Shown here in pieces: positions 38,377-45,006 of a DNA stretch of 64,000 nt. The translations under genes were made by a program, and so were the position numbers. A model generated the notes under the pieces. The model was not told where the DNA came from. It did not search any database and saw only the letters and a program-made list of their open reading frames with translations. Source of the DNA: Candidatus Kapaibacterium sp. (lineage in GTDB: Bacteria; Bacteroidota; Ignavibacteria; Kapaibacteriales; NICIL-2); the NCBI GenBank assembly GCA_026003475.1, contig BPHJ01000001.1, positions 1,239,189 to 1,303,188 on the forward strand, given 5' to 3'. Positions within the stretch are counted from its first letter, which is position 1, and the number at the start of each line of letters is the position of its first letter.

Positions 38377-39552
38377 ATGGAACTGCAGCATTGGCTCACA
38401 GCTGCACGAGAACATTCCGAGCAGATCATCGCCTATCGTCGGCACTTGCACCAGCACCCCGAGCTATCGTTTGCCGAGCATCGAACGCACGATTTTATTT
38501 CGTCTGTGCTTCAGCGCGCAGGTATTACGCCGCACACGGTTGCACAAACTGGCGTCGTAGCGACAATCGGCACGGGTGAGCGGAGCGTTGCAATTCGCGC
38601 TGATATTGACGCACTTCCTATCACAGAACGCACCGGACTTCCCTTTGCGTCGGAATGCGATGGCGTCATGCACGCATGCGGTCATGATTGCCACACAGCA
38701 ATGTTGCTCGGCGCAGCGCTCATGCTCAAGCAACACGAGCACATGCTTCCTGGACGTGTGCTGTTGATCTTCCAGCCTGGTGAGGAAAAATCCCCTGGCG
38801 GTGCATCGCTTGTCATTGCTGATGGCGTGCTCGATCGGTATCACCCTGAGGCGATCTTTGGGCAGCATCTCTATCCGGACGCACCAACGGGCACTATCGA
38901 ACTAACCAGCGGTCCCATCATGGCAAGTGCTGACGAGCTGTATTGGACCTTGCACGGGAAAGGCTCGCACGCAGCCCAACCCCACAAAGGCTCTAACCCG
39001 ATACGCGCTGCAGCAGAACTGATCGTGCATTTGGAAGGCATTGTTCAACAACGGCGGGATCCACTCCATCCAGCAGTGCTTGCCGTTACTGCTATCGAAG
39101 GAGGAACAGCAACCAATGTCGTCCCCGATTGTGTCCGACTCAAAGGGACGCTCCGCAGCTTCGATGACCAGTGGCGACGGCAAATGTGGAACCGCATTGA
39201 GGCACACAGTAGAGTACTCGCAAGCCTTCACGACGTCGAATGCACGGTCGAAATCGTCACTGGCTATCCACCACTGGTCAACAACCCTGAGGCAACCAAC
39301 CATGCTCGCGCTGTAGCACAACAGCTCGTTGGCACTGACCATGTCCGAACCTTCGAACCGAAGATGTGGGCAGAAGACTTCGCCTTCTATGCTGAGCGCA
39401 TCCCGGCAGCATTCTGGATGCTCGGTTGCCGACCGCCGGAGCGCTCAACAATGCCTGGGCTCCACTCGCCGCTGTTCAATCCCGATGAAGATGCACTCCC
39501 GATTGGCGCAGCTATGCTGGCTGCTGTTGCGACTGCGTGGCTGGCACGTTAG
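38377..39552 (+). CDS. M20 family amidohydrolase
   Basis: 'RRHLHQHPELSFAEHRT', 'ADIDALPITERTGLPFAS', 'MHACGHDCHTAMLLGAA', 'HAAQPHKGSNPI'. Confidence 0.95.
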   Translation: MELQHWLTAAREHSEQIIAYRRHLHQHPELSFAEHRTHDFISSVLQRAGITPHTVAQTGVVATIGTGERSVAIRADIDALPITERTGLPFASECDGVMHACGHDCHTAMLLGAALMLKQHEHMLPGRVLLIFQPGEEKSPGGASLVIADGVLDRYHPEAIFGQHLYPDAPTGTIELTSGPIMASADELYWTLHGKGSHAAQPHKGSNPIRAAAELIVHLEGIVQQRRDPLHPAVLAVTAIEGGTATNVVPDCVRLKGTLRSFDDQWRRQMWNRIEAHSRVLASLHDVECTVEIVTGYPPLVNNPEATNHARAVAQQLVGTDHVRTFEPKMWAEDFAFYAERIPAAFWMLGCRPPERSTMPGLHSPLFNPDEDALPIGAAMLAAVATAWLAR

Positions 39553-40805
39553 CCATACTGTGGCTTCGGCGATCGAAGTGTCAGGACGGTAATTTCTGGC
39601 GGAATGCCGATACGAATCGGTGGGCCAACGGTTCCTAATCCTCGGTTGACGTAGAGGTACTGCTCACCGTCACGGTAGAGACCCGCCCACTGCTTATAGA
39701 CTACCTGCGCGACGCTCAGCTCAACACCCAAGAAATGGATACCCACCTGCCCACCATGGGTATGACCGCTGAGCATCAGATCAACGGGTGCTTTCCGGCG
39801 CACCTGCTTATCCCAAAATGTTGGATCGTGCGCCAGCAGAATCGTTGGTGCGCCAGGCTCAACTCCTACCAGCGCTGCAGGAAGGTCCGCGAAGTTTTGG
39901 CCCAGTCCAGTATTGTCGGTACCAAGCAGGTAGATAGTCTCCCCGCTGACCGTCAACGGGACGTTGGTGTTAACCAGCAGCTTGATACCCGAGTTGGAAA
40001 TCATCGAGCGCAAGAGCGAGTGATTCTGAGGTGAGCAGTAGTGATCATGGTTGCCAAGCGAAGCGAAAACACCCACATCAGCACGGAGGCGTACCAAGTC
40101 CCGCCGAATGAACTCGAGTTCTTTGGGATCGAAGTTGACAAAATCACCGGTAATGACGAGCACATCAGGCTTGAGCTGTTCGATCATCGCCCGCGCTCGA
40201 CGAAATGGATCGGGACTGCGCCACGAGCCAGCATGAATATCGCTGATCTGCACAATCCGAATCCCATCGAATGCCCGCGGCAGAGAGCGGAGGACAATTT
40301 CCTCTTCGTAGATGGTCAAGTCATCGGTATCGAAAAATCCCTTCCCGACAATCCCAAACGGAATCATGGCACCGCTCCACGCAAGAGTGCCCAGCGCTTG
40401 CCGCCGTCCAGAATTGATTGCCAGTGGCTGCTGCTGATTGCGTTGCGTTGGTTTGATCCATTCCAGCACGCGACCGACGATACGCTTGACCATTCGAAAC
40501 CCTCCAGCGATGATCACACCGAGTGCAATCGGAATTTTCGGCAAGTACCAGAGCGTCGAAGCGGCAAAAACCAGAAACATTCCTTCTTCCAGTCGGTTGA
40601 GGTTGGTAATGCTCGTGCGTTGGTACGAGACGTACGGGGAAAGCACCAAAAACACCAGCGCCACCACCCATGGAATGCGGTAGAGCCACCGATTCCAGCC
40701 ACGCTGACGCACAAAACGTTGCCACGCCGTCAGCACCACAACGTCTATGGCAAACAGCACAATTGCCGAGGTCAAAACAAACCAGAGCCAACGCTTGGGA
40801 TCCAT
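39549..40805 (-). CDS. membrane-anchored metallophosphoesterase (YkuE-like)
   Basis: N-terminal TMs; 'VQISDIHAGSW', 'VITGDFVNF', 'SLGNHDHY', 'LSGHTHGGQVG'. Confidence 0.93.
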   Translation of the reverse strand: MDPKRWLWFVLTSAIVLFAIDVVVLTAWQRFVRQRGWNRWLYRIPWVVALVFLVLSPYVSYQRTSITNLNRLEEGMFLVFAASTLWYLPKIPIALGVIIAGGFRMVKRIVGRVLEWIKPTQRNQQQPLAINSGRRQALGTLAWSGAMIPFGIVGKGFFDTDDLTIYEEEIVLRSLPRAFDGIRIVQISDIHAGSWRSPDPFRRARAMIEQLKPDVLVITGDFVNFDPKELEFIRRDLVRLRADVGVFASLGNHDHYCSPQNHSLLRSMISNSGIKLLVNTNVPLTVSGETIYLLGTDNTGLGQNFADLPAALVGVEPGAPTILLAHDPTFWDKQVRRKAPVDLMLSGHTHGGQVGIHFLGVELSVAQVVYKQWAGLYRDGEQYLYVNRGLGTVGPPIRIGIPPEITVLTLRSPKPQYG

Positions 40806-40859
40806 ACTGCCGACGACTGCACACGATCGGTTCTGCGCCGGTTACGACGCACAGCAGCG

Positions 40860-41756
40860 TTACTGCATTGTACCGCGCGGCACGACGAACACTGCCGAAC
40901 CCGATGCCAGAACTGCACGTGTTGCTCCATCGCGCACCTCGCCACGGACGTGATGCGCCCGGCGTTCGGAGCGCAAATACTCTGCGTGCAGTTGAATCCA
41001 CGAACCAATCCGCACAGGAGCCTGATAGCGGATCGTCAGTTCGGCTGTCGGTGCTTTGATCCCCATTCCACTGAGAACCTTACCCATGATCTCATCGAGC
41101 ACCAGTGCAACGAATCCCCCATGCATGATGCCAAGCGATCCGCTCGTATGCACAGGCACCTGGAGCCAAGAATCCGCCTGCAACGTTGCGGCATCGAAGA
41201 GCGCCGTTATCTGCAGACTACTGGGGTTGTCACGACCACAACCGGCACACATGTTACCAGCACGCGGGCAAATCAAGTGCAAATGCTCTGGTATCTGTCG
41301 CGGTGGAATCACAGACAGTGTTCCTTTCCAAACGATTGCATACCAGTCCCCCCACGGCGACAGCAGAGGCGCAAGCTCCGTCAGAACAGCAAGACTGAGC
41401 CGTCCCCATTGCTGGTGAGGTGCTCGATGGTAGAGCACGCCAGCATCGAAGACTAACTGTTCCGGATCAAACTGAACGCTTCGCCGTGGTGCGAAGTAGA
41501 GCCGCTCCCCATCAAACCGAGTGAACACATACGGCGTATCTTCGGGAAGGAGAAAATTCATTTCCGCCCCGCACGGGGAACAGTACGGGTAGTCGGGATG
41601 CAGTCCCGTCGTGTTGGGCTGTAAGTTGCCGAAGAAAATATCGCGGAATTGTTCATCGTCAACGGTGATGCCCTCGTGGAGCAATTCTCCGCGTGCGGTC
41701 AGCCGGTAGAAGTATGTTCGCATGGCAACAAATGCTCTCTTCATCAATTGCAACAA
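40860..41756 (-). CDS. UPF0598 (DUF4505)-hotdog thioesterase (PaaI-like) fusion protein
   Basis: N-term 'TYFYRLTARGELLHEG...FFGNLQPNTTGLHPDYPYCSPCGAEMNFLLPEDTPYVFT...LYHRAP'; C-term 'CAGCGRDNPSSL...LGIMHGGFVALVLDEIMGKVLSGMGIKAPTAELTIRYQAPVRIGSWIQLHAEYLRSERR'. Confidence 0.82.
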   Translation of the reverse strand: MLQLMKRAFVAMRTYFYRLTARGELLHEGITVDDEQFRDIFFGNLQPNTTGLHPDYPYCSPCGAEMNFLLPEDTPYVFTRFDGERLYFAPRRSVQFDPEQLVFDAGVLYHRAPHQQWGRLSLAVLTELAPLLSPWGDWYAIVWKGTLSVIPPRQIPEHLHLICPRAGNMCAGCGRDNPSSLQITALFDAATLQADSWLQVPVHTSGSLGIMHGGFVALVLDEIMGKVLSGMGIKAPTAELTIRYQAPVRIGSWIQLHAEYLRSERRAHHVRGEVRDGATRAVLASGSAVFVVPRGTMQ

Positions 41757-41836
41757 AATTGCATCGTGTTGCTACCGTTTGCGCGGTGCTTCTTTCGCCG
41801 TGTGCTTGTCAAGATCACCATCCATCGCTTACTCCA

Positions 41837-42580
41837 ATGAAGTCGGAATACACTGCTCACCTTACTCCGTGGGAGTATCGCGTCTTGGTTGAGAAAGCAA
41901 CCGATCCACCTGGCAGTGGCGTCTACACAGATCATTTCGAGGAAGGAACCTACCACTGCCGTGCATGTGGCGCAGCACTCTATCGCAGCAGCGCCAAGTT
42001 TCATTCCGGTTGTGGCTGGCCCGCCTTCGATCAGGAAATACCCGGGGCAGTCATTCGCAAACCGGATTTCTCCCACGGAATGGTTCGGACGGAAATTCTC
42101 TGTGCTCACTGTGGCGGGCATCTTGGGCACGTCTTCGAGGGAGAAGGATTCACACCCACCAATACACGCCACTGCGTCAATAGCAGTTCTTTGGTGTTCC
42201 ATCCTGCGGACAAACAGCAGCTTGTCGTGGGTGTACCCGATTTTCATCAGTACCAAGAACGCGCTGCACGACTACCAGGCGTGCTCTGGGTCGAATGTGG
42301 CTTCGCCGGCGACGGTACCCACTACTCTGAAGCCCTGCGTATCGAGTATCACCCACGCCAAACAACACCGCTGGCAATCCTTTCTGGGCTGCTTGGCACA
42401 AGCACCAAAAGCCCACGCGATCAAGACCAATGGTGCCTTTTTGTGCGGCCCGATACAAACACCGTTGACGAACTCCCTGCACCGATGCGCCGCGCACCGC
42501 TTGTCACCTACACACGTGCCCCAGAAGAGCATCAGTGGTTTCTCCGCAAAGCAGGTCTTCTCCAAGCGTCACCGCGATGA
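41837..42580 (+). CDS. msrB: peptide-methionine (R)-S-oxide reductase MsrB fused to a degenerate MsrA-like C-terminal domain
   Basis: MsrB: 'GVYTDHFEEGTYHCRACGAALYRSSAKFHSGCGWPAFDQ...CAHCGGHLGHVFEGEG...TNTRHCVNSSSLVF'; C-term 'ARLPGVLWVECGFAGDGTHYSEALRIEYHP' is MsrA-like; ORF open from 41693 so start uncertain. Confidence 0.88.
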   Translation: MKSEYTAHLTPWEYRVLVEKATDPPGSGVYTDHFEEGTYHCRACGAALYRSSAKFHSGCGWPAFDQEIPGAVIRKPDFSHGMVRTEILCAHCGGHLGHVFEGEGFTPTNTRHCVNSSSLVFHPADKQQLVVGVPDFHQYQERAARLPGVLWVECGFAGDGTHYSEALRIEYHPRQTTPLAILSGLLGTSTKSPRDQDQWCLFVRPDTNTVDELPAPMRRAPLVTYTRAPEEHQWFLRKAGLLQASPR

Positions 42581-43365: not shown

Positions 43366-45006
43366 CTACATTCGCTCCGGTGCACGAACACCGAGAAGGT
43401 GCAAACCATTGCGGAGTACCGTCTGCGTAGCGGCTGCCAATGCAAGCCGCGTCGAGCGAACATCATCGCGATCAGCACCAAGAATTCGGCACTCGTGGTA
43501 GAAGGTGTGGAAAGCCTCTGCGACAGAATGGAGGAAGTCAGCAACAATGGAGGGTGCCAGTTGCTCAGCAGCACGCTCAACGGTTGAGGGAAACTGCGCA
43601 AGCATCTTCACGAGAGCATGCTCTGCAGGATGGTCAAGGACCATGGCTCCGGTATTTTCCCACTCAATCCCGTGCTCCCGTGCATTGGCAAAGACCGAGC
43701 ATATCCGTGCGTGCGCATACTGCAGGTAGAACACCGGGTTTACCTCGCTCTGCTCACGCGCCAGGTTCAGGTCGAATACCAACTGCGTCTCCGCTGCACG
43801 CATCACAAAGAAGAACCGAACAACATCTGGGCCGACTTCATCAATGAGGTCATCGAGCGTGTATTGTTCCCCACTCCGCTTGGAGAGTTTGTAGGGCACA
43901 CCATCTTTCATGAACGTGACCATCTGGTGCAGCACCACCTTGATCGGTGATGTATCGTAGCCAAGTGCACGGACGGCGGCAAGAACTTCTTGGATTGTAG
44001 CGATATGGTCAGCACCGAAGACGTCCACGATCAAGTCATCGCCGCGTTCGAGCTTGATGCGGTGGTAGGCAATATCGGGCAACCGATAGGTGGGTTCACC
44101 GCTCGATTTGATGATGACGCGGTCTTGCTCCAAACCCAGCTTAGTCGTTGCGATCCACGTTGCGCCGTCGTGTTCGTAGACCAGCCCACGCGCGCGCAAG
44201 TCTTCCACGACGCGCGCAATATGTCCATCGGTATAGAGCGAGTGTTCGTTGAAGTACACATCATGCCGAACACCAAGCCGTTCGAGGGTTGACCGTATGG
44301 ATGCAAAGCACCATTGTTCTCCTTTGGTGCGACAGATGGCAAGGTTGGCGTCGGTTTCTTCCCGCAGACTGTCCCCATACTCAGCGATGAGTTCACGGGC
44401 AATGTCCAGGATGTACTCCCCGCGATAGCCATTGTCTTCATCGAAGGGATAGTCCGGCTCACCGAGCAGTTGCCGGTAGCGTGCATAGATCGAGCGCGCC
44501 AGGTTCTGCATCTGCCGTCCGGCATTGTTGAAGTAGTACTCGCGCGTGACGCGGTAACCAACCGCTTCGAGGAGTCGGGCAATGCTGTCGCCCAGGGCAA
44601 TATTCCGTCCATGACCGGGATGGAGCGGTCCGGTTGGATTAGCGCTCACGTACTCGACATTTGCACGCTTGCGCGCGTAGCGCTCGGTGTATCCGAAGCG
44701 TTCTCCCTGCGCCCGGATGCGCTCGAAAAGATCGGCATAGTAGGCAGGACCAAAGCGCAGATTGATAAAGCCTGGTCCGGCGATTTCGACGCTGCTGATA
44801 CGCGCAGGATCGTAGTCCATCGCAGCAACGATATCTTGAGCAACTGAGCGTGGTGATTTGCCCAGAGTCCGAGCAAGCTGCAGAGCAACTGTCGTTGCAG
44901 CATCTCCGTGGCTGGCATGGCGAGGAAGCTCGACGGTTACGTCGGCATTGAGGCCAAGGCGTTCGAGAGCAGTACCGAGAACGGTGCGTACGTAGTCGAA
45001 AAGCAT
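43366..45006 (-). CDS. argS: arginine--tRNA ligase
   Basis: 'VEYVSANPTGPLHPGHGRNIALGDSIARLLEAVGY', 'MVTFMKDGVPYKLSKRSGEQYTLDDLI', C-terminal DALR. Confidence 0.96.
   Translation of the reverse strand: MLFDYVRTVLGTALERLGLNADVTVELPRHASHGDAATTVALQLARTLGKSPRSVAQDIVAAMDYDPARISSVEIAGPGFINLRFGPAYYADLFERIRAQGERFGYTERYARKRANVEYVSANPTGPLHPGHGRNIALGDSIARLLEAVGYRVTREYYFNNAGRQMQNLARSIYARYRQLLGEPDYPFDEDNGYRGEYILDIARELIAEYGDSLREETDANLAICRTKGEQWCFASIRSTLERLGVRHDVYFNEHSLYTDGHIARVVEDLRARGLVYEHDGATWIATTKLGLEQDRVIIKSSGEPTYRLPDIAYHRIKLERGDDLIVDVFGADHIATIQEVLAAVRALGYDTSPIKVVLHQMVTFMKDGVPYKLSKRSGEQYTLDDLIDEVGPDVVRFFFVMRAAETQLVFDLNLAREQSEVNPVFYLQYAHARICSVFANAREHGIEWENTGAMVLDHPAEHALVKMLAQFPSTVERAAEQLAPSIVADFLHSVAEAFHTFYHECRILGADRDDVRSTRLALAAATQTVLRNGLHLLGVRAPERM

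Follow-up and report, generated by a model that had tools for sequence, protein, structure and literature searches.

What does the UPF0598 (DUF4505) domain do, and what can be learned from its fusion to a thioesterase-like hotdog domain in a Kapaibacteriales genome? Human C8orf82 is a single-domain protein, whereas in Kapabacteria a thioesterase-like protein has DUF4505 as its N-terminal half. No functional paper on UPF0598 or C8orf82 was found among the open papers searched, and a search of these papers for a fusion of UPF0598 with a hotdog, prompted by the initial annotation of this locus, found no description of one. A published study (PMC7066081) reported C8orf82 in the mitochondrial matrix. 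The mystery domain occurs also in human mitochondria, and the bacterial fusion offers a lead on its role.

Gene model and domain architecture

The window analysed here is the whole stretch of 64,000 nucleotides, taken from a 2.16-Mb single-contig genome. The initial annotation described an uninterrupted 298-aa ORF at 40860-41756 and gave no strand. The ORF is indeed uninterrupted on the minus strand (41756..40860, 298 aa when read from a TTG), and the plus strand of 40860-41756 contains two stops. The N-termini of related proteins lie just ahead of the R.YFY motif, so the ATG at 41723 is the likely start, not the upstream TTG. The resulting fusion gene (40860..41723, minus strand, stop included) encodes 287 aa and is defined by the ORF, the Pfam matches and an orthologue alignment (A2). 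Comparison with the orthologue of a congeneric genome (65% identity) gave dN of 0.30 and dS of 2.0, so the gene is real and under purifying selection. For this reason a 471-aa ORF on the plus strand (40041-41456), antisense to both the fusion gene and its metallophosphoesterase neighbour, was taken as spurious.

The protein is composed of an N-terminal DUF4505/UPF0598 domain (residues ~1-139; 41307..41723), an inter-domain connector placed from alignment A2 (residues ~140-154; 41262..41306) and a C-terminal PaaI/THEM4-like hotdog domain (residues ~155-287; 40860..41261), all on the minus strand. The AlphaFold2 model of the full-length fusion, a check that the initial annotation had proposed, is confident (pLDDT 94.9, pTM 0.86), with a pLDDT of ~86-96 in the connector. 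The UPF0598 domain modelled in isolation has a pLDDT of 94.3.

Distribution and losses of the fusion

The fusion architecture is real and conserved across Kapaibacteriales. A DUF4505 match was detected in 33/61 genomes of the order, the whole-protein search likewise found 33, and the hotdog region is attached in every fusion copy except those truncated where a contig stops (in one copy it has decayed). An assembly error, raised earlier as a possible source of the fusion, was rejected because the architecture recurs in dozens of genomes. In the samples from the class (247 genomes) and the phylum (348 genomes) all matches are confined to Kapaibacteriales. The spread of DUF4505 in wider bacteria was judged from one strict pattern scan of genome contigs only, which resulted in 28 confirmed loci in bins named Kapaibacterium, Ignavibacteria, Chlorobiota, Bacteroidota or similar. 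Most named relatives of the fusion come from Candidatus Kapaibacterium and Ignavibacteria-type bins, and they place the host of the window in the Kapabacteria (Kapaibacteriales). The DUF4505-domain search of plasmids gave no match, and the fold search of BFVD gave no significant match.

The fusion gene is absent from families f3 (0/10) and f7 (0/10). In two genomes congeneric with the window genome the interval from msrB to the metallophosphoesterase gene lacks it altogether, with synteny otherwise kept and both halves gone together. No stand-alone orthologues of either half were found in Kapabacteria genomes without the fusion (E<=0.001).

The hotdog half

The C-terminal half is a PaaI/4HBT-like hotdog with an HGG motif, as had been annotated. 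Pfam 4HBT (PF03061) matches aa 209-279 of 298 with an E-value of 4.9e-10 and 40 bits (cut-off 20.6). The family is matched by 23/25 aligned members; the two exceptions are a copy truncated where its contig stops and the copy with the decayed hotdog. Among solved structures, the hotdog profile matches 2ov9 and 2prx, and its best relatives include the entries of human THEM4 (E 1.2e-19) and THEM5 (E 2.4e-12). Foldseek searches with the AlphaFold2 model found 2ov9, THEM4, THEM5 and THEM2 (~1e-10 for 2ov9 and THEM4), including a complex with undecan-2-one-CoA. A central helix (202-219) lies between strands, as expected of a hotdog fold with its HGG motif (residues 201-203; 41115..41123, minus strand). 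In the alignment to 4gah, D210 (41094..41096, minus strand) and T226 (41046..41048, minus strand) align with the THEM4 segments 'MID' and 'VMT', making them equivalents of the active-site Asp and Thr of THEM4, which we take to be catalytic. Asp210 is present in 24/25 aligned members (a gap in one) and Thr226 in 23/25 (Ile in one, a gap in one). The fusion hotdog scores 18 bits against NCBIfam TIGR00369, below the cut-off of 36.6, and was not assigned to it.

The HGG, Asp and Thr positions are shared with THEM4. THEM4 and THEM5 (PDB 4ae8, 4gah, 4ae7) are human acyl-CoA thioesterases, but the N-terminal part of those proteins is unrelated to that of the fusion, and identity in structural alignments is 17-20%; for the fusion the activity is a predicted one. 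Homology strongly supports the prediction that the C-terminal half is an acyl-CoA thioesterase.

The supposed Cys-rich linker between the two domains did not hold up. Its CxxCG motif (C-A-G-C-G, residues 159-163; 41235..41249, minus strand) is an N-terminal extension of the hotdog unit. C159 and C162 are invariant (25/25 members), and the motif recurs in PDB 2prx and in ~10 of the 18 profile-matching stand-alone hotdogs from the class and phylum. These stand-alone PaaI-type proteins (2prx; L114-L118, L120-L122, L127, L128) share the CxxC, then N..G, then the hotdog, but are mostly ~155-175 aa long and have no DUF4505 domain. Because CxxCG is common to them, the partner that DUF4505 gained in the fusion was an entire hotdog unit, CxxCG included.

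The UPF0598 half and its relationship to DUF1285

The identification of the N-terminal half as UPF0598, originally based on human C8orf82, was confirmed: Pfam DUF4505 (PF14956) matches aa 12-122 of 298 with an E-value of 1.1e-13 and 51.9 bits (cut-off 27.3). This profile of the C8orf82 family is common to all 25 aligned fusion members. The match spans profile positions 9-137 of 177 in the window protein and mostly ends at 148-152 in its relatives, leaving the last 25-40 positions unmatched. G12, D23, E54, N56, D62, G95, L97, Y98, H99, A101, R108 and G125 are invariant (25/25).

When the UPF0598 model was compared with the PDB, the sole significant matches were 2re3 (E 5.0e-6) and 2ra9 (E 3.5e-5), each with a probability of 1.00 and both belonging to DUF1285. 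Profile-profile comparison of DUF4505 with three DUF1285 proteins from other Kapabacteria gave a probability of 86% (E 5.2e-6, 22% identity, 116 columns), and the profile of those three proteins matches 2re3 with an E-value of 2.8e-23. Sequence-only searches of the PDB with DUF4505 profiles found no match, the link being visible by structure and profile-profile comparison only, and none of the 25 DUF4505 domains matches PF06938 (DUF1285). On these comparisons, DUF4505 is a sister family of DUF1285 and not a member of it. The fold and profile-profile matches support a UPF0598-DUF1285 superfamily, which a 2010 review mentioned as personal communications only (PMC2954204).

The fold and strand order of the UPF0598 half are shared with DUF1285 (PF06938/PF21028; 2re3, 2ra9), and by inspection of alignments A4 and A5 the E..(8)..D.P spacing of DUF1285 (E60/D68) lines up with E54/D62 of the fusion. 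The authors of the DUF1285 study (PMC2954208) suggested that a conserved cleft between the domains holds a nucleotide-based ligand, and pointed out Nudix neighbours; that ligand is itself a prediction. According to PMC2954208, no residue of the DUF1285 cleft is strictly conserved, in contrast to DUF4505 with its invariant E54, N56, D62, Y98, H99 and R108.

The separate DUF1285 proteins of Kapabacteria are encoded in three genomes (L098 1201-1707, L100 1225-1695 and L099 1237-1701, all on the minus strand). Two of these genomes lack the fusion and one (G014) has both. No Nudix gene was found among the four neighbours scanned (PaaA/PaaC-like, Rep, helicase, DUF817). A PaaA/PaaC-family gene (L103 3548-4534, minus strand) is found two genes 3' of one stand-alone DUF1285 gene.

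A lineage with a decayed hotdog

The distances of the N- and C-terminal domains correlate (r 0.74 without the lineage L037), as would fit two domains that have evolved together since a single fusion. In L037 (family f5; fusion at L037 5472-6338; L037/L096, G043) all of the listed UPF0598 invariants and both cysteines are kept. Its hotdog has lost the HGG and the Thr, and the mean distance of this domain is 0.79 vs an ordinary 0.53 for its N-domain. UPF0598 is therefore probably more than an accessory of the hotdog, and L037 speaks for an independent function of this domain. Retention of UPF0598 in a lineage with no recognisable thioesterase site also weakens the simplest Rosetta-stone reading, by which the initial annotation had linked UPF0598 to acyl-CoA or acyl-thioester chemistry. 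Given one conserved fusion in one order, neighbours that lend no acyl-CoA support and the decayed L037 hotdog, this functional link is suggestive only.

Proposed function and alternatives

The best explanation, put forward tentatively, is an acyl-CoA thioesterase with a ligand-binding regulatory domain of the DUF1285 fold. Homology and modelling show that the C-terminal half is a THEM4/PaaI-type hotdog carrying HGG, Asp210 and Thr226, and that the N-terminal half has the DUF1285 fold. The hotdogs would dimerise, as is usual for hotdogs, and the dimer would hydrolyse acyl-CoA, with Asp210 activating a water molecule and Thr226 helping to orient it. Less certainly, UPF0598 may use E54, N56, D62, Y98, H99 and R108 to bind a small molecule with a nucleotide moiety in a cleft like that proposed between the domains of DUF1285. 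The simplest candidates would be the substrate and free CoA, and this binding may regulate or direct the thioesterase. We infer this role of UPF0598 in the fusion, and regulation by a nucleotide-type ligand is the most economical guess. The explanation is favoured by the Pfam cut-offs passed by both domains, the conserved fusion lost as a unit, the confident model, the THEM4-type matches and conserved Asp and Thr of the hotdog, the DUF1285 matches of the N-domain and the correlated distances of the two domains. It is disfavoured by the mosaic of neighbours, the sub-cut-off TIGR00369 score and the predicted nature of the DUF1285 ligand itself, and L037, where UPF0598 was able to persist without a working thioesterase, also counts against it.

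The order-wide natural fusion and the fold link to DUF1285 provide a concrete first hypothesis for UPF0598/C8orf82, namely a nucleotide- or CoA-type ligand and acyl-thioester chemistry. It is testable with a single purified protein, and L037, with its decayed hotdog, is a built-in control.

It is possible, if unlikely, that UPF0598 is an enzyme and the fusion bifunctional, one domain making or consuming what the other handles. The invariant charged and polar residues (25/25), which set DUF4505 apart from the DUF1285 cleft and are kept even in L037, would fit an active site, but the UPF0598 fold has no significant match to any known enzyme. Also unlikely is that UPF0598 serves chiefly as a structural or protein-interaction module setting the oligomeric state or the partner of the hotdog; the same residues exceed what a scaffold needs. 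Such a module would agree with the constant position of UPF0598 at the hotdog N-terminus in Kapaibacteriales and with the confidently predicted domain arrangement (pTM 0.86); it sits poorly with L037, which retains UPF0598 without a recognisable thioesterase site.

A further reading, in which UPF0598 and DUF1285 would make up one superfamily of CoA/acyl-CoA-sensing domains and mitochondrial C8orf82 would work in trans with a THEM4-like thioesterase, mirroring the cis arrangement of the Kapabacterial protein, is doubtful. Improbable, too, is a chance joining of two individually useful domains with no functional coupling: there is one fusion in one order and several lineages lack the gene, but across divergence down to ~35-40% identity no re-split was seen and the gene was lost as a unit.

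Gene neighbourhood

The context of the fusion is a mosaic, and its neighbours name no acyl-CoA pathway. In the window a metallophosphoesterase gene (YaeI/LpxG-like; 39549..40805, minus strand; identified by PF00149, NCBIfam and synteny) lies downstream of the fusion. Lineages f1 and f2 and f9 genus g11 share this order, and since the metallophosphoesterase gene is kept where the fusion was lost, the two are probably not one system. Many relatives have argS immediately 5' of the fusion. In the window, AhpC/TSA and MsrB genes stand between the fusion and argS (43366..45006, minus strand).

The codirectional upstream neighbour is argS in f2, dtd in f4, f8 and f10, and tsaD in f9 genus g11. The f2 order is rsfS-argS-fusion-metallophosphoesterase, with a convergent amidohydrolase/dapF/suhB block. 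In other lineages the fusion is next to murE, a large surface-type protein, pncB with a nicotinamidase-like gene, or a divergent msrB, the last arrangement being that of the window genus. In f5 a divergent redoxin gene is found at the fusion, with pncB and a nicotinamidase-like gene downstream; the L037 fusion adjoins pncB, the nicotinamidase-like gene, the redoxin and an aspartate dehydrogenase gene. Upstream neighbours are often tRNA-related (argS, dtd, tsaD) at L034, L038, L041, L057 and L058.

A role outside acyl-CoA metabolism, in the quality control of tRNA or translation, such as the clearing of wrongly formed aminoacyl esters or thioesters, would account for the lineage-varying argS, dtd and tsaD genes upstream, but is very improbable given that the pattern was spotted post hoc in few independent contexts, that the other lineages have the quite different neighbours listed above and that the hotdog carries no pointer to RNA.

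The MsrB ORF of the window (41693-42580, plus strand) has a C-terminal extension, and its match to the bifunctional MsrB/A model is only partial (aa 51-210 aligned with 5-170 of 293). The GTG listed as its start falls within the 5' end of the fusion, so the true start is probably downstream.
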